Below are positions 13,554-43,798 of a DNA stretch of 64,000 nt, in pieces (positions within the stretch are counted from its first letter, which is position 1; each line of letters opens with the position of its first letter). Below the pieces are notes generated by a model. The model searched no databases, was not told the origin of the DNA, and saw only the letters and a list, made by a program, of their open reading frames with translations. The position numbers and the translations under genes were made by a program. The DNA is from Peredibacter starrii (GTDB lineage: Bacteria > Bdellovibrionota > Bacteriovoracia > Bacteriovoracales > Bacteriovoracaceae), in NCBI RefSeq assembly GCF_034259205.1, contig NZ_CP139487.1, positions 1,674,001-1,738,000 on the forward strand, in the 5' to 3' direction.

Positions 13554-13588
13554 GTCAATGACCGTGGTCACTGACATTATATTTTTTT
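13554..13588 (+). terminator. Probable terminator after flagellin
   Basis: An inverted repeat GTCA-a-TGACC, gt, GGTCA-c-TGAC spans 13554-13575 with one mismatch, followed within seven bases by a run of seven T. It fits a rho-independent terminator for the flagellin gene, although the perfect central loop is only two bases, so the inner stem must open. It might also act as an operator for the next gene. Confidence 0.5.
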
Positions 13589-13614
13589 CTCTCACAATAG
13601 GCTCGAGGTGTTTT

Positions 13615-15120
13615 ATGAATACAACTGAGTCATATAGTGCGGTCATCTTGGACCTCGACGGAGTTCTTACCGATACTCGTAATCTTCATTACGATGCCTG
13701 GAAACAGACCTTTGATGAATATCTGAGGAACTACGGACAAGGACCATTCTCTCAAAAAGAATATGAGCAGTATGTCGATGGTAAGCCTCGATCTCAGGGA
13801 ATCCTGGACTTCCTGATTTTTCGGGGAATTCCCATCACTTCAAGTGAGCTTCAGAAATTGGGGCAAAGGAAAAATGAAATATATCTCTCTGAATTGGATC
13901 ATCAAGGAGTCGTGGTTTTTTCTGATGCTTTGAGAGCATTAAGAAAGTGGAGGGACAAAGGTGTTCCTCTGGCCGTCGTTTCATCCAGTAAAAACACCAC
14001 CAAAATCTTAGATCGATTACGCATTAGAAATTATTTCGAGGTAGAAATGAATGCCTTGATCGGAGAAGAGATGCATCTGGAAGGAAAACCCAGTGCGGAT
14101 TTCTTCCTAGAGGCGGCCAAACGTTTAAATAAGAAACCAGACGAATGTATTGTCGTCGAAGATGCAGTCGCTGGCATTCAAGCGGGCAATGCCGGAAATT
14201 TTGCTTCTGTCATCGGAGTCGCTCGTCCTGGCCAAACAGGTGGGAAAGAACTCAGTGAGGCGGGAGCGGACTTTGTGGTGACGGGACTGGAAGAAATATT
14301 CGACTTAAAACCAAATATCATAAAAAGCTGGCGCAACTTCGCTCAGTTTATTGATGGGAAGGAGATGGCCCTCTTCCTGGATTTTGATGGAACTTTGAGT
14401 GAAATCGTTCCGGATCATCACGATGCTCAGATGGTTGAAGAGATTCGCCCCGTACTAACTCGAATTTCAGATAGTATCAAGGTCGCCATCATTAGCGGTC
14501 GAGATCGAAAAGATGTTAAGGCCCGGGTAGGGATTGATGGTCTTTTCTATGCCGGCTGCCATGGTTATGACATTAGCGGCCCTGGATGTTTTCATTTTCA
14601 AATTGAAGAAGCAGAAGAGGCAAGTTCAGAAATGAACGAGGCGATTAAACAAATCGAGTCTCATGCGGACAAATACCCGGGTCTTTCCATTGAAAGGAAA
14701 AAATATTTCACGGCGATCCATTACCGAAATGTTGATTCCTCGCTTCATCAAAGCTTAAAAAACGAAATTAATGATCTGGTCAAAAGCTTTAAGAAGCTTG
14801 AGGTTAGAAGAGGGAAAATGGTTTTCGATCTTGCCCCAAAATTGAAATGGAACAAAGGTGAGGCAGTAAAAAAACTCTGTGAAGTTTTAGATATGGCCCC
14901 TGGAAAAACCGTCGCGGTCTATATAGGCGATGATCTAACGGATGAAGACGTTTTTTGTGAACTTCATTCTTGGGGGATTGGAATAAAGGTCGGAATAGAA
15001 AGTATGGCCGGTACTTGTTCCGATTATTCACTTCGAACTCCTTCAGAGGTCGCAACTTTTTTAAATAAGATCGAACAAAACTTCACTCAACAGGAAAAAC
15101 AATGGAGACGTGGAGCTTAA
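13615..15120 (+). CDS. Beta-phosphoglucomutase / trehalose-6-phosphate phosphatase fusion
   Basis: Two HAD phosphatase-fold domains are fused in 501 residues. Domain 1 (about 5-225) has I-L-D-L-D-G-V-L-T-D (Asp13/Asp15), G-K-P-S-A-D-F-F and V-V-E-D-A-V-A-G-I-Q, as in beta-phosphoglucomutases. Domain 2 (about 248-490) has F-L-D-F-D-G-T-L (Asp256/Asp258) and Y-I-G-D-D-L-T-D-E-D, as in OtsB-type trehalose-6-phosphatases. Start at 13615: GAGGTG at 13604-13609 precedes it, and the ATG at 13558 would add an unrelated N-terminal tail. The next gene, GH65, overlaps by 19 bases. Together the order PGM-TPP-GH65 equals the single-chain Mycobacterium OtsB1 (Rv2006). Expected chemistry: trehalose-6-phosphate to trehalose, and beta-glucose-1-phosphate to glucose-6-phosphate; which one dominates is unknown. 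Confidence 0.88.
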   Translation: MNTTESYSAVILDLDGVLTDTRNLHYDAWKQTFDEYLRNYGQGPFSQKEYEQYVDGKPRSQGILDFLIFRGIPITSSELQKLGQRKNEIYLSELDHQGVVVFSDALRALRKWRDKGVPLAVVSSSKNTTKILDRLRIRNYFEVEMNALIGEEMHLEGKPSADFFLEAAKRLNKKPDECIVVEDAVAGIQAGNAGNFASVIGVARPGQTGGKELSEAGADFVVTGLEEIFDLKPNIIKSWRNFAQFIDGKEMALFLDFDGTLSEIVPDHHDAQMVEEIRPVLTRISDSIKVAIISGRDRKDVKARVGIDGLFYAGCHGYDISGPGCFHFQIEEAEEASSEMNEAIKQIESHADKYPGLSIERKKYFTAIHYRNVDSSLHQSLKNEINDLVKSFKKLEVRRGKMVFDLAPKLKWNKGEAVKKLCEVLDMAPGKTVAVYIGDDLTDEDVFCELHSWGIGIKVGIESMAGTCSDYSLRTPSEVATFLNKIEQNFTQQEKQWRRGA

Positions 15121-17531
15121 CCTACGATGAGTGGGATCCTCAGGAAGAACGACTAAGAGAGGCCCTCTGTACTTTAGGGAACGGATACTTCGCGACGAGA
15201 GGTGCCGCAGAAGAAAGTACAACAGGCGATTTTCATTATCCTGGTACCTATCTTGCAGGAGGTTTCAATCGGAGCATCTCAATTATTGCGGGAGAAGAAA
15301 TACAAAATGAAGATCTGGTAAATTGGCCCAACTGGATCTGCCTCAGCTTCCGACATGTGAATGATGAATGGCTGGATCTCTCAAAGATGGAGGTCCTTTC
15401 TTATCAACAAGAGCTTGATTTAAGATCTGGTGTTTTAAGCCGGTGTTTAACTCTTCGGGATAAATATGGTCGAGAATCCGAATTAAAAACGAACCGATTT
15501 GTAAGTATGTCCAATAAACATGTGGCCGGTATAAAATGGTCTTTGCGGCCCCTAAATTGGTCGGGTCCAATCGAAATTAAAAGTTGGATTGATGGGGGCG
15601 TGGATAATTCTGGCGTTCATCGTTATCGTGAATTGAATCGAAAGCATCACACAGTCAGACGTTCAGGAAATATTGATCGAGAAAGTTTTTATCTCGAAAC
15701 CACCACTAATGAATCCCAAATCGTTATGGCCCAAGCAATACGAAACAGAATTTCTAAATCTGAATTTAAATTTGATGAGTGGATTAAAGAGGATTCAATT
15801 GGACATACTTTCTCAATCACTTTGGATGAACAAGAAGAGGTCACGATTGAAAAAGTGATGGCCCTTTTTCATTCCCGTGACCGGGCCCTTAGCCACCCTT
15901 TATACGAGGCCAAGCGGCTCCTGATGAAAATTGGAAATTATGAGGAAATATTGGCCTCCCATCGACGTGAATGGGAACATCTTTGGCATCTTTGTGACAT
16001 TGAGCTCCTGGATAATCCCCGGGAAGCTAAACTTTTACGTTTTCATATTTTTCATCTTCTCCAAACAGTATCTCTTCATAACATCGACCTGGATGCGGGA
16101 GTTCCCTCTCGAGGACTTCACGGAGAGGCCTACCGGGGACACATTTTTTGGGACGAGGTGTACATATTCCCCTTATTGAATATTCGCGTTCCCGAGATAG
16201 CCCGATCTCTTTTAATGTATCGATATCGAAGACTTGATGAGGCAAGGATCAATGCTCGGGAGAGTGGATTTGAAGGAGCCATGTATCCCTGGCAAAGCGG
16301 AAGCAATGGTGAAGAAGAAAGCCAGTTAACACATTTGAATCCTGTATCCGGGAAATGGATCCCGGACTCGACATATCTGCAACGTCATATCAATAGCATC
16401 ATTGTTTACAACATTTGGAAATATTATCAGGCCACAAATGATCTGGAGTTTCTTTCGTTCTTTGGTGCCGAGATGATGCTAGAAATCTGTCGGTTTTGGG
16501 CCAGCAAAATGACTTATAATTTGGATCGCGATCGCTACGATATTAAAAACGTTGTGGGGCCGGATGAATTTCATACCGCTTATCCCGACTCGGATGAATT
16601 AGGCATAAATAATAATGCTTATACAAATTTTATGGTCTCATGGTGTCTAAAAACTACCGTCGAACTCTTTCGTAGTTTACCTGTTAATAGACGACGGGAT
16701 CTTTTGAGTATATTGCAAATTAAAAATGATGAATTAGACATGTGGCTTGAGAAAAGTCGAAAGATATTCATCCCCATGGCCGAAGGTGGAATCATTGAAC
16801 AGTTTGAAGGTTTTGAAAAACTGGAGGACCTTAATTGGGACCATTATAAGCGGAAATATGGGAACATTCAGCGCATTGATCGGCTTCTTGAGGCAGAAGG
16901 TGATGATCCGAACAAATACAAATTGAATAAACAGAGTGATGTGTTGATGATCTATTATCTTTTTCTGCCAGATGAGCTAGAAAAAAATTATGAATGGCTG
17001 GGCTATCACTTTGACAAAGATAGCATTTTAAAAAATATTCAATATCATCTGGCACTTTCCTCAAATGGATCGACTTTAAGTCGTGTCGTTCATTCCTGGA
17101 TTCTTTCTCGTTATGATCTGGATCTTTCCTGGCACTGGTTCTTGCGTGCTCTGGAGAGTGATATATCGGATATTCAAGGAGGGACGACCGAAGAGGGAAT
17201 TCATCTGGGTGCGATGGCAGGAACTGTGGACTTGGTTCAGAGATGTTTTACAGGCATTGAGGTCAGAGATGATGTCATTTGGCTGCTTCCTCATATTCCA
17301 AGTAAGATTCGTCATTTAAATTTAAGAGTTCGCTTTCGCGGTCATTCCATTCAGATTCGGTTCGCCGATGATCTATGCAAGATTAAAATTGAGCGTAGCT
17401 GGTTGGTCCCTGGTAAAATTGGATTTCAGGGTGAGGTCCATGAGTTCAATGAAGGAGATGAGTTCTCTTTCAAACTGAAACCAGTCGAGGCAGATGTGAT
17501 TACTGACAGAATATCTTCTGCATTGCCTTGA
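15102..17531 (+). CDS. Glycoside hydrolase family 65 (trehalose/maltose phosphorylase-like)
   Basis: The 809-residue protein spans the whole GH65 architecture. It has an N-terminal beta-sandwich (L-G-N-G-Y-F-A-T-R-G near residue 25) and an (alpha/alpha)6 barrel with F-W-D-E-V-Y, followed by G-P-D-E-F-H whose Glu489 is the expected general acid. N-N-N-A-Y-T-N and K-Q-S-D-V-L are GH65 hallmarks, and a short C-terminal beta domain closes the protein. GH65 enzymes are inverting phosphorylases or hydrolases of alpha-glucosides. With the upstream PGM/TPP the natural reading is phosphorolysis of trehalose or a related disaccharide to beta-glucose-1-phosphate. The ATG lies inside the upstream gene with AGGAAA ahead of it, so translation is probably coupled. 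Its 3' end overlaps the opposite-strand repressor gene by 32 bases. Confidence 0.9.
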   Translation: METWSLTYDEWDPQEERLREALCTLGNGYFATRGAAEESTTGDFHYPGTYLAGGFNRSISIIAGEEIQNEDLVNWPNWICLSFRHVNDEWLDLSKMEVLSYQQELDLRSGVLSRCLTLRDKYGRESELKTNRFVSMSNKHVAGIKWSLRPLNWSGPIEIKSWIDGGVDNSGVHRYRELNRKHHTVRRSGNIDRESFYLETTTNESQIVMAQAIRNRISKSEFKFDEWIKEDSIGHTFSITLDEQEEVTIEKVMALFHSRDRALSHPLYEAKRLLMKIGNYEEILASHRREWEHLWHLCDIELLDNPREAKLLRFHIFHLLQTVSLHNIDLDAGVPSRGLHGEAYRGHIFWDEVYIFPLLNIRVPEIARSLLMYRYRRLDEARINARESGFEGAMYPWQSGSNGEEESQLTHLNPVSGKWIPDSTYLQRHINSIIVYNIWKYYQATNDLEFLSFFGAEMMLEICRFWASKMTYNLDRDRYDIKNVVGPDEFHTAYPDSDELGINNNAYTNFMVSWCLKTTVELFRSLPVNRRRDLLSILQIKNDELDMWLEKSRKIFIPMAEGGIIEQFEGFEKLEDLNWDHYKRKYGNIQRIDRLLEAEGDDPNKYKLNKQSDVLMIYYLFLPDELEKNYEWLGYHFDKDSILKNIQYHLALSSNGSTLSRVVHSWILSRYDLDLSWHWFLRALESDISDIQGGTTEEGIHLGAMAGTVDLVQRCFTGIEVRDDVIWLLPHIPSKIRHLNLRVRFRGHSIQIRFADDLCKIKIERSWLVPGKIGFQGEVHEFNEGDEFSFKLKPVEADVITDRISSALP

Positions 17532-17793
17532 GAAGCTTGAGTACCAGGGGATTTTCAATATAGTAGAAAGAAAAATTTTTCTCTCTTCTTAGCCCCAGAA
17601 GACCTTCATTTTGCATGCGCTTAAGGAATTGAGACGTATGTGATTGAGAGAGACCAACTGCGTTTTGAATTTCTGAAACCTGCTTTTCGCCGTCACTAAG
17701 ATAGCACAGAATCAACAACCGCTGTGGATGGGCAAACTGCTTCAAAAGTCCCGCCACTTCATCACATTTGTCCTGCATAATACTTAAATCCAT
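17500..17793 (-). CDS. bigR: ArsR-family repressor, BigR/SqrR/YgaV-type sulfane-sulfur sensor
   Basis: A 97-residue winged-helix protein with the ArsR core (F-A-H-P-Q-R-L-L-I-L-C, Q-V-S-E-I-Q, L-S-Q-S-H-T-S-Q-F-L as recognition helix, wing R-R-E-K-N-F-S-F-Y-Y). Cys30 and Cys96 are 66 residues apart, exactly as in BigR (42/108) and SqrR (41/107), where these two cysteines form a polysulfide bridge and release DNA. Neighbours are a sulfite/sulfur exporter, YeeE/YedE transporters and an ETHE1-type dioxygenase, so the sulfane-sulfur role is well supported. The ATG at 17793 has GAGGT ahead of it and overlaps the tauE-like stop by 10 bases, so the two genes form one operon. Confidence 0.85.
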   Translation of the reverse strand: MDLSIMQDKCDEVAGLLKQFAHPQRLLILCYLSDGEKQVSEIQNAVGLSQSHTSQFLKRMQNEGLLGLRREKNFSFYYIENPLVLKLLKAMQKIFCQ

Positions 17794-18518
17794 ACTGACC
17801 TCATGATACTAACTGTGGAATAGACCACAACAAGTGTAAAGAGTATTTTCCTGAACTTTAGCATTTCAGGAGGCAATTTTTTTATGAGCAAAACAGATAT
17901 GAACGAGCCAAAGGTAATTAATGCAAGCTCAGAAAGACTAATCAGTGAACTTACTTCTCCCCATTGAAAAATAAAAGACATCACTGAAATTAAAAGAATG
18001 CTGGCAAGTCCATTTCCCAGGGCCTCTTGATAGTTCATTCCAAAAAAATTCATTAGAACCGGCATGAGAACGACACCTCCCCCTAGACCTGTGAGTGTCG
18101 TTAAAATTCCCAGTAATAGACCGATGATGACCGATTTTATCGGCCCTTGCTTTTCTTGCTTGGCCCCCAATTCACGACGCTCTCTCCAAACACTCAATAA
18201 GCCATAGATTCCAATGGAGATGATTAGTGTGGCCACTACATAATCTGGAATTTCATTTTTTTTATTCACTGACAAAACATTTCCAATGGCCCCTGCTGAT
18301 ACAAGGGTGAGAACTAACCGAAGGTTTAATTTTGGCCTAAGACCAATTAAGTTTATCAGAGTACTCATAATGACGATGACTAGGGAAAGAGTCGTAGCAT
18401 CCCTCAATGACAGTGATAAAAGACCAATCAAAAGAGGAATCGCTGCCAGTGCTCCGCCAGCGCCAGTGAGCCCCATGATTAGTCCCACAAACAGTCCTAT
18501 GATGATGTAGAGGAGCAT
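17784..18518 (-). CDS. TauE/SafE family sulfite/organosulfur exporter
   Basis: The 244-residue membrane protein has about eight hydrophobic helices in two halves, each starting with the family's Gly-rich helix (G-L-T-G-A-G-G-A near residue 18, and L-T-G-L-G-G-G-V near 142). TauE/SafE proteins export sulfite, sulfoacetate or related sulfur anions from the cytoplasm. It is the first gene of the operon with the BigR-like repressor. Its predicted promoter, TTTACA (18571-18576) / 17 bases / TATTAT (18548-18553) on the minus strand, lies wholly inside the palindrome at 18545-18576, so repression by its own downstream gene product is likely. Confidence 0.88.
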   Translation of the reverse strand: MLLYIIIGLFVGLIMGLTGAGGALAAIPLLIGLLSLSLRDATTLSLVIVIMSTLINLIGLRPKLNLRLVLTLVSAGAIGNVLSVNKKNEIPDYVVATLIISIGIYGLLSVWRERRELGAKQEKQGPIKSVIIGLLLGILTTLTGLGGGVVLMPVLMNFFGMNYQEALGNGLASILLISVMSFIFQWGEVSSLISLSELALITFGSFISVLLIKKLPPEMLKFRKILFTLVVVYSTVSIMRSVWI

Positions 18519-18544
18519 GTTTTATTCCTTGATCTGAATGTGGA

Positions 18545-18576
18545 TTTATAATATTATGATTTTGTAATATTGTAAA
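18545..18576. promoter_or_regulatory. Divergent sulfur-operon promoter with long inverted-repeat operator
   Basis: Perfect 7-bp arms AATATTA (18550-18556) and TAATATT (18565-18571) flank eight bases. The symmetry extends outward to 12-bp arms (TTTAt.../...gTAAA) with one mismatch. Reading leftwards, TTTACA and TATTAT at 17-base spacing form a near-consensus sigma-70 promoter for the tauE-bigR operon inside this palindrome. A TATAAT at 18547-18552 could serve the rightward yeeE operon, though no good -35 goes with it. It is the obvious site for the BigR-like repressor, which would control both directions. Confidence 0.75.
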
Positions 18577-18594
18577 CTTGAAAAGGACAAACCG

Positions 18595-19005
18595 ATGTTA
18601 CCAATATTAGGTGGGGCCATTATAGGATTGGCCGCAAGTATATTGCTTCTATTCGATGGAAGAGTGACTGGAATTAGTGGCATTACTTCAGGAGTGATTA
18701 AATCAGAGACACCAGACAAGTCTTGGCGAATTTTTTTTCTTTCCGGACTAATAATTGGTGGAGTTCTTCTACGTTTTTTTCGACCGGAGGCAGTGACCAT
18801 TATTTCCGGCGCCTTCAATTATGATTACGCCCTTGCCGGTTTTTTAGTTGGGTTTGGCACTGTTTTAGGGAGTGGATGCACTTCAGGTCACGGAGTATGT
18901 GGATTGTCCCGTTTTTCAGTTCGTTCAATGGTTGCAGTTCTCATTTTCATTGGCACTGCCATGTTAACGTTATTTGTCTTTAAGACTTTTCGAGGTGTCC
19001 TATGA
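18595..19005 (+). CDS. YeeE/YedE-family sulfur transporter, first half (PmpA-like)
   Basis: A 136-residue protein with about four membrane helices and the sulfur-transport motif G-S-G-C-T-S-G-H-G-V-C-G-L-S-R (residues about 92-106), whose cysteines relay thiosulfate or sulfane sulfur in characterised YeeE proteins. It covers half of a full-length YeeE, and the next gene supplies the other half, overlapping by ATGA. Such split pairs (PmpA/PmpB type) are a known form of the family. AAAAGGA precedes the start. It begins the rightward transcript from the divergent sulfur promoter. Confidence 0.85.
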   Translation: MLPILGGAIIGLAASILLLFDGRVTGISGITSGVIKSETPDKSWRIFFLSGLIIGGVLLRFFRPEAVTIISGAFNYDYALAGFLVGFGTVLGSGCTSGHGVCGLSRFSVRSMVAVLIFIGTAMLTLFVFKTFRGVL

Positions 19006-19424
19006 AAAATGTGGTTGCCTTACTATCGGGCCTTATTTTTGCCATGGGCCTCGGTCTAAGCGGAATGACCCGACCAGATGTTGTTAAAGGTTTTCTCGAT
19101 ATAACGGGAGAATGGAATTGGTCATTGATGGGAGTCATGTTTGGAGCAATCCTGGTCCATAGTATTGCGTATCAACTCATTATGAAAAGAAAGTCTCCTA
19201 TTTTAGAAAAGGAGTTTTATCTTCCAACCAAGACCAGCGTTGATTCACGCCTCATCATCGGTTCCATCATTTTTGGAATCGGTTGGGGATGGGGAGGAAT
19301 TTGTCCAGGACCGGCCATCGTCAATCTTGCATCTGGGTCCGCCCGTGCCGTTATTTTTGTTCTCTTTATGTTACTTGGCATGAAAGTCTTTCAATGGTTT
19401 GATAATAAGGTCCTGTCTAAATAA
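19002..19424 (+). CDS. YeeE/YedE-family sulfur transporter, second half (DUF6691/PmpB-like)
   Basis: A 140-residue, four-helix membrane protein carrying G-I-G-W-G-W-G-G-I-C-P-G-P-A near residue 90-103, the second conserved cysteine motif of split YeeE/YedE transporters. The start ATG shares ATGA with the stop of the first half, so the two are translationally coupled and probably form one transporter for thiosulfate or related sulfur. The dioxygenase gene follows after 11 bases with a GCGAGG ribosome site. Confidence 0.85.
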   Translation: MKNVVALLSGLIFAMGLGLSGMTRPDVVKGFLDITGEWNWSLMGVMFGAILVHSIAYQLIMKRKSPILEKEFYLPTKTSVDSRLIIGSIIFGIGWGWGGICPGPAIVNLASGSARAVIFVLFMLLGMKVFQWFDNKVLSK

Positions 19425-19435
19425 GCGAGGTCTTT

Positions 19436-20152
19436 ATGCAAAATAGTTTAATCTTCTACCAGCTTTTTGAAAAAGAATCTTCAACCTATACCTATCTTCT
19501 GGGCGACATTAAAACAGCTGAGGCCGTGATCATTGACCCAGTTATGGAGACCAGCGAGAGAGACATTAAGCTGATTAACGACCTTGGATTAAAACTAAAA
19601 TATATTCTTGAGACCCATGTTCATGCAGACCATGTGACTGGGTCGGGGATCCTTCGCAACCGAACCGGAGCACAGATCGCTTTAGGTGCTGCCAATGATT
19701 CAGGATGTGCCGACATTTCTCTTAAGGAAGGAGATCAAATCAGGTTTGGTTCTCATAGTATTACTTCGATTTCTACACCAGGTCATACAAATGGGTGCAT
19801 GACTTATCACCTGGATAACATGCTCTTTACCGGTGATACCCTTTTGATCCGTGGATGTGGTCGAACTGATTTTCAGGAAGGCTCATCAGAAAGACTCTTT
19901 CATAGTGTAAGAGACAAGATCTTTGCTTTTCCGGATGAAACATATATTTATCCTGCACATGATTATAAAGGATTTACTCGAACAACAGTTGGTGATGAGA
20001 AAAAGCTCAACCCTAGATTGAAACTCGAGAATACTGAAGCGGATTTCGTTAAAATAATGGCAGAGCTTAAATTGGACTATCCTAAAAAGCTACAAGTTGC
20101 CGTCCCGGCGAATAAACAATGTGGTCTTAATCCCGGGCAGAACAATTCTTAA
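19436..20152 (+). CDS. ETHE1/Blh-type persulfide dioxygenase (metallo-beta-lactamase fold)
   Basis: The 238-residue metallo-beta-lactamase-fold protein has H-V-H-A-D-H (His61, His63, Asp65, His66), T-P-G-H-T (His117), a F-T-G-D-T aspartate near 133 and Y-P-A-H-D-Y. R-G-C-G-R-T-D-F-Q is diagnostic of the ETHE1 persulfide-dioxygenase branch, which uses mononuclear iron to oxidise glutathione persulfide to sulfite. No rhodanese domain is attached. Third in the rightward operon after the split YeeE pair; the sulfite it makes could leave through the TauE-type exporter encoded on the other arm. Confidence 0.88.
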   Translation: MQNSLIFYQLFEKESSTYTYLLGDIKTAEAVIIDPVMETSERDIKLINDLGLKLKYILETHVHADHVTGSGILRNRTGAQIALGAANDSGCADISLKEGDQIRFGSHSITSISTPGHTNGCMTYHLDNMLFTGDTLLIRGCGRTDFQEGSSERLFHSVRDKIFAFPDETYIYPAHDYKGFTRTTVGDEKKLNPRLKLENTEADFVKIMAELKLDYPKKLQVAVPANKQCGLNPGQNNS

Positions 20153-20226: not shown

Positions 20227-22044
20227 ATGAGTGACACGACTTCTTTCAGTGCGACATCCGAAACCATTGAGCGTAATCATTGGAAGACCTTGAAGACACT
20301 GGGACATTATCTGTGGCCCGCGGACAGAAAAGATTTAAAGGTCAGAGTTGTTTTTGCCATGTTTTTCCTCGCGGCAGGAAAGATCCTCAATGTTTATGTT
20401 CCGTTTCTCTTAAAGTCTTCCATTGATCAACTGTCTCAAACGAACAAAGTTCTTGTTCTTCCACTGGGTCTCATCATCGCCTATGGTCTTGCTCGATTAC
20501 TGGTAGGAATTTTTGAGGAACTAAGAGATCTCATCTTTGCCAAAGTTGAACAGCACGCCTTACGTAACATCGCCTTGAACACATTTAGACACCTTCATGG
20601 TTTGTCTTTGGATTTTCATTTATCGAGACAAACCGGCGGCCTATCAAGAGTGATTGAAAGAGGGACCAGAGGGATTCAATTTCTTTTGGACTTTATGACC
20701 TTTAATATTATTCCGACCATCCTTGAAATTATTCTTGTGACTGGTGTGTTGGTTTATCACTTCAATTTGACCTATGCTTCAGTCATTTTCATAACCATTG
20801 CCATCTACATTGTGCTGACTCTGATGGTAACAGAGTGGCGCCTTAAATACCGTAAGGCGATGAATACCGCGGAGACCAAGGCCAATACCCGCGCGATTGA
20901 TAGTCTTCTTAATTTTGAGACTGTTAAGTATTTTGGAAATGAGGAGCATGAGTTTCATCGCTTCGATGAATCCCTTGCTCAGTATGAGACGGCGGCGATC
21001 AAGGGGCAAAATACTCTGTCTCTTTTGAATCTCACTCAAAAAGGCATTATCTCCTTTGGTCTTATCATTATCATGTTGATGGCCGCGAGAGATGTGGTGA
21101 GTGGAAAAATCACAGTGGGTGATTTCGTGCTGGTCAATACATTTCTTATTCAGCTTTATTTGCCCCTAAACTTCTTGGGATTTGTATACCGAGAAATTAA
21201 AAACAGCTTAGTCGATATGGATAAGATGTTTGAACTTATAAAAGTCCATGCATCTGTGGCCGATGATAGTAACGCTGAACCCTTAGTTATCACGAGGGCA
21301 GTGATTGAATTTGAGGATGTGCGATTTGGATATAAGTCAGACCGAGAAATCCTAAAAGGTATTAGCTTCAGAATTGACTCCGGAAAGACCCTCGCCATTG
21401 TGGGTCCCAGTGGATCAGGCAAATCGACAATCGGCAGGCTTTTGTATCGATTCTACGACGTCACTGGTGGAGTCATCAGCATCGATGGACAAAATATTCG
21501 AAAGGTAAAACAGCACTCCCTACGATCACATATTGGAATGGTTCCACAGGACACGGTGCTATTTAACGATACCATTGGCTACAACATCCAATACGGTCGC
21601 CCAACTGCGACAATGGATGAAGTAAAAAGGGCAGCTGAGCTGGCCCATATTGATGAATTTATCAATGAGCTACCTGATAGATATGAAACTCCGGTTGGAG
21701 AGAGAGGATTGAAACTTTCAGGCGGAGAAAAACAACGAGTTGCCATCGCCAGAACGATTCTTAAAAACTCTGAGATCCTTTTGTTTGATGAGGCGACTTC
21801 GGCATTGGATTCACAAAAAGAAAAAGAAATCCAAAAGTCACTTAAGGATATTTCACGAGATCGCTCCACCTTAATCATCGCCCATCGACTTTCGACGATT
21901 ACCCATGCAGATGAGATAATTGTGCTGCAAAACGGGAAGGTCGTGGAAAGAGGTGTGCATAGTCAATTGCTCCGTCAAGGTGGCATCTATGCATCGATGT
22001 GGGCAAAGCAGCAGGAAGAAGAAGCTCATTCTATTCAGGTATAA
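20227..22044 (+). CDS. Atm1/ABCB7-type ABC exporter (fused membrane and ATPase domains)
   Basis: The 605-residue half-transporter has six membrane helices in residues 40-320 and a C-terminal ATPase with Walker A G-P-S-G-S-G-K-S-T at 393, signature L-S-G-G-E-K-Q-R and Walker B I-L-L-F-D-E-A. The N-terminal pattern (L-W-P-A-D-R-K-D-L, N-V-Y-V-P-F-L-L-K, H-L-H-G-L-S-L-D-F-H, R-G-T-R-G-I-Q-F) is that of the Atm1/HMT branch rather than MsbA. Atm1 exports glutathione persulfides or metal-glutathione conjugates. It lies 74 bases after the persulfide dioxygenase, same strand, so it may belong to the same sulfur response; a separate promoter is possible. There is no good ribosome site before the ATG. 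Confidence 0.85.
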   Translation: MSDTTSFSATSETIERNHWKTLKTLGHYLWPADRKDLKVRVVFAMFFLAAGKILNVYVPFLLKSSIDQLSQTNKVLVLPLGLIIAYGLARLLVGIFEELRDLIFAKVEQHALRNIALNTFRHLHGLSLDFHLSRQTGGLSRVIERGTRGIQFLLDFMTFNIIPTILEIILVTGVLVYHFNLTYASVIFITIAIYIVLTLMVTEWRLKYRKAMNTAETKANTRAIDSLLNFETVKYFGNEEHEFHRFDESLAQYETAAIKGQNTLSLLNLTQKGIISFGLIIIMLMAARDVVSGKITVGDFVLVNTFLIQLYLPLNFLGFVYREIKNSLVDMDKMFELIKVHASVADDSNAEPLVITRAVIEFEDVRFGYKSDREILKGISFRIDSGKTLAIVGPSGSGKSTIGRLLYRFYDVTGGVISIDGQNIRKVKQHSLRSHIGMVPQDTVLFNDTIGYNIQYGRPTATMDEVKRAAELAHIDEFINELPDRYETPVGERGLKLSGGEKQRVAIARTILKNSEILLFDEATSALDSQKEKEIQKSLKDISRDRSTLIIAHRLSTITHADEIIVLQNGKVVERGVHSQLLRQGGIYASMWAKQQEEEAHSIQV

Positions 22045-43489: not shown

Positions 43490-43798
43490 TTAAAGGGGAG
43501 ACTTGAGTGAGCGTAAGACCTCAATAAGTCCCGGAACTCTTTTTTCAATTTCATCGACCCTGAGAGAAATATAGTGGGTCTTACCTTCTTCTCTTTTTTC
43601 GATAAATCCTGTCTCTCTTAAAACCTTGAAGTGATGGGACATTGTGGACTTAGAAAGAGTGCTTTTGCATTCTCCACAACTGATTTCATTCTTTTCTAAA
43701 AGTTCTCGAATGATCTCAATCCTCGCAGGATCACTTAGAGCATTAAAGATACTTGAGATCTGAATTTTCTTTAGAGCAGGTCTGTCGGGTTTCTTCAT
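43490..43798 (-). CDS. ArsR-family transcriptional regulator
   Basis: 102 residues with the ArsR core (F-N-A-L-S-D-P-A-R-I-E-I-I-R-E-L) and recognition helix L-S-K-S-T-M-S-H-H-F-K-V-L. Two cysteines (S-C-G-E-C, residues 41 and 44) precede the recognition helix in a CxxC arrangement near the place of the ArsR metal-site ELCVCDL motif, but the motif is not conserved. Divergent from lon; a perfect 16-bp palindrome lies between them. It may be autoregulated and control lon. Confidence 0.87.
   Translation of the reverse strand: MKKPDRPALKKIQISSIFNALSDPARIEIIRELLEKNEISCGECKSTLSKSTMSHHFKVLRETGFIEKREEGKTHYISLRVDEIEKRVPGLIEVLRSLKSPL

Follow-up and report, generated by a model that had tools for sequence, protein, structure and literature searches.

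A predicted BigR-class sulfane-sulfur switch over divergent tauE-repressor and yedE1-yedE2-dioxygenase units in Peredibacter starrii

Introduction

The basic BigR-type system is already well described in other bacteria. The cysteine pair of these ArsR repressors is spaced by 66 residues in Xylella BigR (42/108; PMC5823870), Acinetobacter baumannii BigR (34/100; PMC7315123) and sHdrR (50/116; PMC12423496), and by 67 in YgaV (31/98; PMC9774250). The reported chemistry includes a disulfide in Xylella BigR (PMC5823870), a tetrasulfide in YgaV (PMC9774250) and, in HlyU, a persulfide-specific reaction with none toward H2O2 (PMC10509353). The SqrR operator reads ATTC-N8-GAAT (PMC9774250), and Xylella BigR is reported to block a -10 region (PMC5823870). 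Among the genes found with such systems, the YedE1E2 transporter of Cupriavidus and Sinorhizobium imports zero-valent sulfur and needs one cysteine per subunit (PMC10812762), and RND pumps have been mentioned near repressors related to the sHdrR-type regulators (PMC12423496). The closest characterised system to the locus described here is BigR/yeeE-yedE-pdo2 of A. baumannii, which has nearly the same parts (PMC7315123).

In this work, we analysed a locus in a window (the whole 64,000-nucleotide stretch of DNA under study) from Peredibacter starrii, which an initial annotation had read as a complete reactive-sulfur response locus with a BigR-type switch. The genes, the catalytic and sensor residues, the synteny, and the conservation and uniqueness of the operator were computed here.

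Results

An ORF check placed all five genes of 17500-20152 at the coordinates of the initial annotation, and Pfam agreed with its description of a repressor flanked by TauE/SafE, a split YeeE/YedE and an ETHE1-type dioxygenase:

17500-17793, minus strand: ArsR/BigR-class repressor, 97 aa, with Cys10, Cys30 and Cys96
17784-18518, minus strand: TauE/SafE-family exporter, predicted sulfite efflux (Pfam TauE)
18595-19005, plus strand: YedE1-like half of a two-gene YeeE/YedE (PmpAB) sulfur transporter (Sulf_transp)
19002-19424, plus strand: YedE2-like half (DUF6691; Sulf_transp and DUF6691)
19436-20152, plus strand: ETHE1-type persulfide dioxygenase, metallo-beta-lactamase fold (Lactamase_B)

The Pfam scores were 45 bits for HTH_5, 105 for TauE, 34 and 46 for Sulf_transp, 145 for DUF6691 and 77 for Lactamase_B. 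On the minus strand tauE precedes the repressor gene, and the end of the one and the start of the other share 10 nt, so the two are probably co-transcribed and translationally coupled; yedE1-yedE2-pdo lies on the plus strand, divergent from them. A sulfide:quinone oxidoreductase (SQR) was found neither in the locus nor among the PF07992 matches of the genome, those examined being of NDH-2 or thioredoxin-reductase types, and the three rhodanese-domain genes of the genome are unlinked to the locus. Thus, the word "complete" in the initial annotation has to be withdrawn: the locus is a sulfane-sulfur module rather than a complete sulfide-oxidation pathway, and it would act on sulfane sulfur that has been formed or taken up beforehand, and not on H2S itself. 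A glutathione synthase-like gene in the genome could serve the substrate thiol. In the neighbouring part of the window (13558-17531, plus strand), inspection by eye showed a 520-aa protein that apparently fuses two HAD phosphatase domains (beta-phosphoglucomutase-like and trehalose-phosphatase-like), adjoined by an 809-aa GH65-like disaccharide phosphorylase.

The closest solved relatives of the repressor are YgaV (3cuo), the ArsR set 6o8k/13ct, which we take to be SqrR, and BigR (3pqj), and in the alignment with all of these, Cys30 and Cys96 fall on the sensor cysteines, one in helix 2 and the other in the last helix. The predicted model has the ArsR helix/strand order of the winged-helix type (mean pLDDT 89.7), with Cys10 in helix 1, Cys30 in helix 2 and Cys96 where the last helix ends, and together with Pfam HTH_5 it indicates an ArsR winged-helix fold. 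Cys30 and Cys96 are described here as the predicted persulfide-sensing pair. Their exact 66-residue spacing, which the initial annotation had stressed, does match BigR, but the whole sensor class has 66, with 67 in YgaV; because it is common to BigR, sHdrR and related sensors, the spacing alone cannot name the ligand. Against the NCBIfam equivalog for the sulfite-sensing repressor BigR (NF040642) the protein scored 65.6 bits, short of the cut-off of 155, which places it in the BigR/SqrR/YgaV class without making it a BigR ortholog in the strict sense. Both linkage to sulfane-sulfur genes and an inverted-repeat operator, as in that class, were observed here. In four other ArsR/HTH_5-like proteins examined from the P. 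starrii genome, no cysteine pair spaced by 64-68 residues was present. Elsewhere in the window, an ArsR/HTH_5-like protein (43595-43732, minus strand) has a CxxC pair and lacks the BigR-type cysteines.

Among 40 aligned homologues, Cys30 was kept in all 40 and Cys96 in 36. One of the four Cys96-less sequences, L068, looks like a degraded copy, and the other three (L047, L059 and L065) are intact and carry Cys10 and Cys30; L047 and L059 lie close to a persulfide dioxygenase gene, which counts against reading Cys30/Cys96 as the switch. Cys10 is an extra cysteine common in the family and missing in nine relatives, and as it is kept in the three intact Cys96-less repressors, it may be an alternative or third sensing thiol. 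We also considered complementarity between Cys10 and Cys96, which has three exceptions among 39 intact proteins and, with a chance of about 0.44 calculated by hand, is not significant. The degraded copy belongs to congener G098 (L068 6555-6785), where the frame is broken after about 49 residues.

A metal-sensing ArsR/SmtB repressor, with Cys10, Cys30 and Cys96 as the metal site, would also suit the ArsR fold, the 63.1 bits scored in a broad NCBIfam metalloregulator subfamily (cut-off 55 bits) and the three cysteines conserved in the clade. However, the linked genes include no metal transporter and no ars/czr gene, the repressor sequence is without a CxC metal motif, nine relatives do without Cys10, and the closest solved structures are sulfur sensors. 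We rejected metal sensing for the lack of metal-linked genes, and its probability appears minimal.

Upstream of yedE1, the predicted operator ATATTATGATTTTGTAATAT occupies 18551-18570 and contains the inverted repeat ATATTA-N8-TAATAT, the sole exact match to which in the 4.15-Mb genome is this one. It falls inside the fragment 18530-18590 that the initial annotation had proposed for a gel shift, and it overlaps the -10 boxes of two predicted divergent sigma-70 promoters, which are consensus matches of a kind no commoner here than in shuffled sequence:

18548-18576, minus strand: predicted promoter of tauE-repressor, -35 TTTACA (18576-18571), 17-nt spacer, -10 TATTAT (18553-18548)
18529-18557, plus strand: predicted promoter of yedE1-yedE2-pdo, -35 TTGATC (18529-18534), 17-nt spacer, -10 TATTAT (18552-18557)

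At most loci of the congeners, the same place holds a TTGACT-like -35 together with a TATTAT -10. The operator was present in 14/14 repressor-YedE1E2 loci with 10-12 of 12 positions matched, and over these 14 YedE1E2-linked loci the N8 spacing, with a sum of 161, topped every other spacing tested (at most 146). These upstream regions had in part served to define the motif, which makes the shuffle test on window-type loci partly circular; we therefore re-tested the operator on a sister clade of repressors in RND operons, which had not been used for motif definition. There, all 11 operons had the operator, 24-41 nt before the first gene, with a sum of 126/132, whereas shuffled sequences gave a mean of 93.4 (sd 2.3) and at most 101. 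These RND-clade sites and the unlinked (tauE/pdo) sites make up the independent part of the operator evidence. Across 26 congeneric genomes, 21 exact operator sites were found vs 3 for a reversed control pattern; 18 of the 21 were inspected, of which 13 lie at sulfur-linked genes of this set (repressor loci, OsmC or tauE/pdo) and five do not. In G081 and G087 the operator sits between divergent tauE and pdo while the repressor is on a different contig, so the operator is apparently used in trans.

In some congeners, an OsmC/Ohr-type peroxiredoxin gene adjoins the operator. This would suit a BigR/RexT-like switch with oxidants (H2O2, disulfide stress) as its main signal and with the sulfur genes inside an antioxidant programme, as would the Cys42-Cys108 disulfide, sulfenylation and glutathionylation of Xylella BigR in vitro (PMC5823870). 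However, every linked gene in the window has to do with sulfane sulfur or sulfite, and HlyU, a homologue, reacts with persulfide but not with H2O2 (PMC10509353); we regard oxidant sensing as improbable. In all likelihood, the locus is a BigR-class sulfane-sulfur switch over tauE-repressor and yedE1-yedE2-pdo.

The repressor was found in 53/129 genomes of the order searched, and its named relatives in public genomes come from Bacteriovoracaceae, other Bdellovibrionota, Oligoflexia, Gracilibacteria/Patescibacteria and some Pseudomonadota; most are metagenome assemblies, and some loci stop at contig edges. The divergent tauE-repressor/yedE1-yedE2-pdo layout recurs in congeners L031, L033, L034 (at a contig edge), L036 and L037, and L032 has a divergent arrangement without tauE in which no dioxygenase was detected. 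The repressors of L031-L034, L036, L037 and L035 form one clade with that of the window (support 100/100). Other genera have the order repressor-yedE1-yedE2 on a single strand. In the sister clade (L045, L046, L048, L050-L054 and L063, and also L038 and L041), the repressor homologue closes an operon that also encodes an outer-membrane efflux protein (OEP), an RND pump and, in most cases, a rhodanese, with the operator in front; the opposite side carries divergent rhodaneses and, in some loci, a YeiH- or TauE-family exporter. On Gracilibacteria/Patescibacteria contigs L107-L110, L112, L115 and L118, a homologous repressor has ATATTA-N8-TAATAT just upstream, and several contigs of this group carry repressor-yedE1-yedE2-...-dioxygenase operons. 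Under table 11, in-frame stops interrupt at least two of the Gracilibacteria/Patescibacteria repressor genes, which would be expected if TGA encodes Gly (code 25). We tentatively speculate, as a possibility that we hold to be rather less than even, that one ATATTA-N8-TAATAT persulfide regulon spans Bdellovibrionota and Gracilibacteria/Patescibacteria with its outputs swapped by lineage (YedE1E2-dioxygenase-TauE vs rhodanese-OEP-RND-repressor), and that the RND pump is a sulfane-sulfur exporter.

The dioxygenase aligns from end to end with human ETHE1 and bacterial PDOs at E about 1e-70 (2.8e-75 for ETHE1 structure 4chl), and it keeps the metal-site His/Asp residues and the motifs THVHADH, GHT, FTGD, RGCGRTDFQ and PAHDY, of which RGCGRTDFQ is shared with human ETHE1 (4chl), as are the metal ligands. 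By this full-length homology, its metal ligands and its motifs, 19436-20152 is assigned as an ETHE1-type persulfide dioxygenase. The TauE protein is covered over its full length by PF01925, as befits the TauE/SafE family, and is a predicted sulfite exporter. An ATM1/ABCB7-type ABC exporter gene (window 20227-22044, plus strand) begins 75 nt after the dioxygenase gene on the same strand, and no terminator is predicted between the two. Atm1 relatives move glutathione (poly)sulfides. We left this exporter out of the locus because a close homologue occurs in only 2/26 congeners and is not adjacent in syntenic relatives.

Cys95 and Cys102 of the YedE1-like protein and Cys101 of the YedE2-like protein were invariant in 16/16 sequences, and two adjacent half-size Sulf_transp proteins with a conserved cysteine in each are of the YedE1E2/PmpAB type. 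Cysteines equivalent to these invariant ones are essential in Cupriavidus YedE1E2 (PMC10812762), and by analogy YedE1E2 here most likely imports sulfane sulfur. The split YeeE/YedE of the initial annotation is thus of a type reported to import zero-valent sulfur (PMC10812762), so it probably supplies the dioxygenase and does not serve export.

The same switch could also serve sulfur acquisition or nutrition from exogenous zero-valent sulfur, e.g. from prey, rather than detoxification. This idea agrees with the reported import, and not export, by YedE1E2 (PMC10812762), but the dioxygenase and TauE would discard the sulfur as sulfite and not fix it, and the sister species have an RND efflux operon behind the same operator. 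We consider a nutritional purpose unlikely, if somewhat less so than oxidant sensing. Relatives in this family live as predators and come into contact with the thiols of their prey, which speaks for nutrition; the predatory lifestyle of P. starrii is itself inferred from its family.

Discussion

The initial annotation is partly supported by this work, with corrections to "complete", to the role of YedE1E2 and to the weight given to the cysteine spacing. Homology, residue conservation, synteny and an operator that is itself conserved speak for its BigR-type thiol switch, sulfite-producing dioxygenase and sulfite exporter.

For the ligand, the cysteine bridge, the release from DNA and the direction of transport, our model draws on the homologues. 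By analogy with them, the switch very probably turns on reactive-sulfur import, oxidation and export upon persulfide build-up. A reduced repressor dimer would sit on the single operator (18551-18570), cover both -10 boxes and keep both units silent. With a build-up of persulfide or polysulfide, one or more sulfur atoms would come to link Cys30 to Cys96 and the repressor would leave the DNA, so that tauE-repressor and yedE1-yedE2-pdo could both be expressed. YedE1E2 would then import zero-valent sulfur, or transfer it to thiols to give persulfide; the ETHE1-type dioxygenase would convert thiol persulfide and O2 to sulfite, and TauE would export the sulfite thus made. Because the repressor gene is in the tauE operon, the switch would reset itself.

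These results extend the BigR-type sulfane-sulfur switch to a predatory Bdellovibrio-like lineage, in which our literature search found nothing on such a switch. To the described systems, this work adds the operator sequence, the position of the operator across two divergent predicted promoters and its apparent use in trans, as well as the link to an RND operon in sister species and the occurrence of this operator before Gracilibacteria/Patescibacteria repressors. The operator sequence lets the regulon be predicted from DNA alone, including the RND efflux operon. In view of the RND pumps mentioned near sHdrR-type repressors (PMC12423496), the RND link is not wholly new.

As in A. baumannii, the locus combines an ArsR repressor whose cysteine pair is 66 apart, a two-gene YeeE/YedE and a persulfide dioxygenase (PMC7315123); unlike there, tauE joins the repressor operon, which diverges from the transporter-dioxygenase operon, and no SQR was found alongside. 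With the bigR operon of Xylella and Agrobacterium it shares a BigR-class repressor, a sulfur dioxygenase and a TauE-related exporter (PMC5823870), and just as Xylella BigR covers a -10 region (PMC5823870), the predicted operator here lies over -10 boxes; however, the dioxygenase here is a single ETHE1 domain, whereas Blh of Xylella and Agrobacterium is a DUF442-ETHE1 fusion (PMC5823870). An aligned sensor cysteine pair and an inverted-repeat operator with N8 between the half-sites are shared with E. coli YgaV and Rhodobacter SqrR, but the operator bases are ATATTA/TAATAT instead of ATTC/GAAT, and the target genes differ (PMC9774250). Finally, the transporter predicted here resembles Cupriavidus and Sinorhizobium YedE1E2 in consisting of two small membrane proteins with one conserved cysteine each at about 101-104 (PMC10812762).
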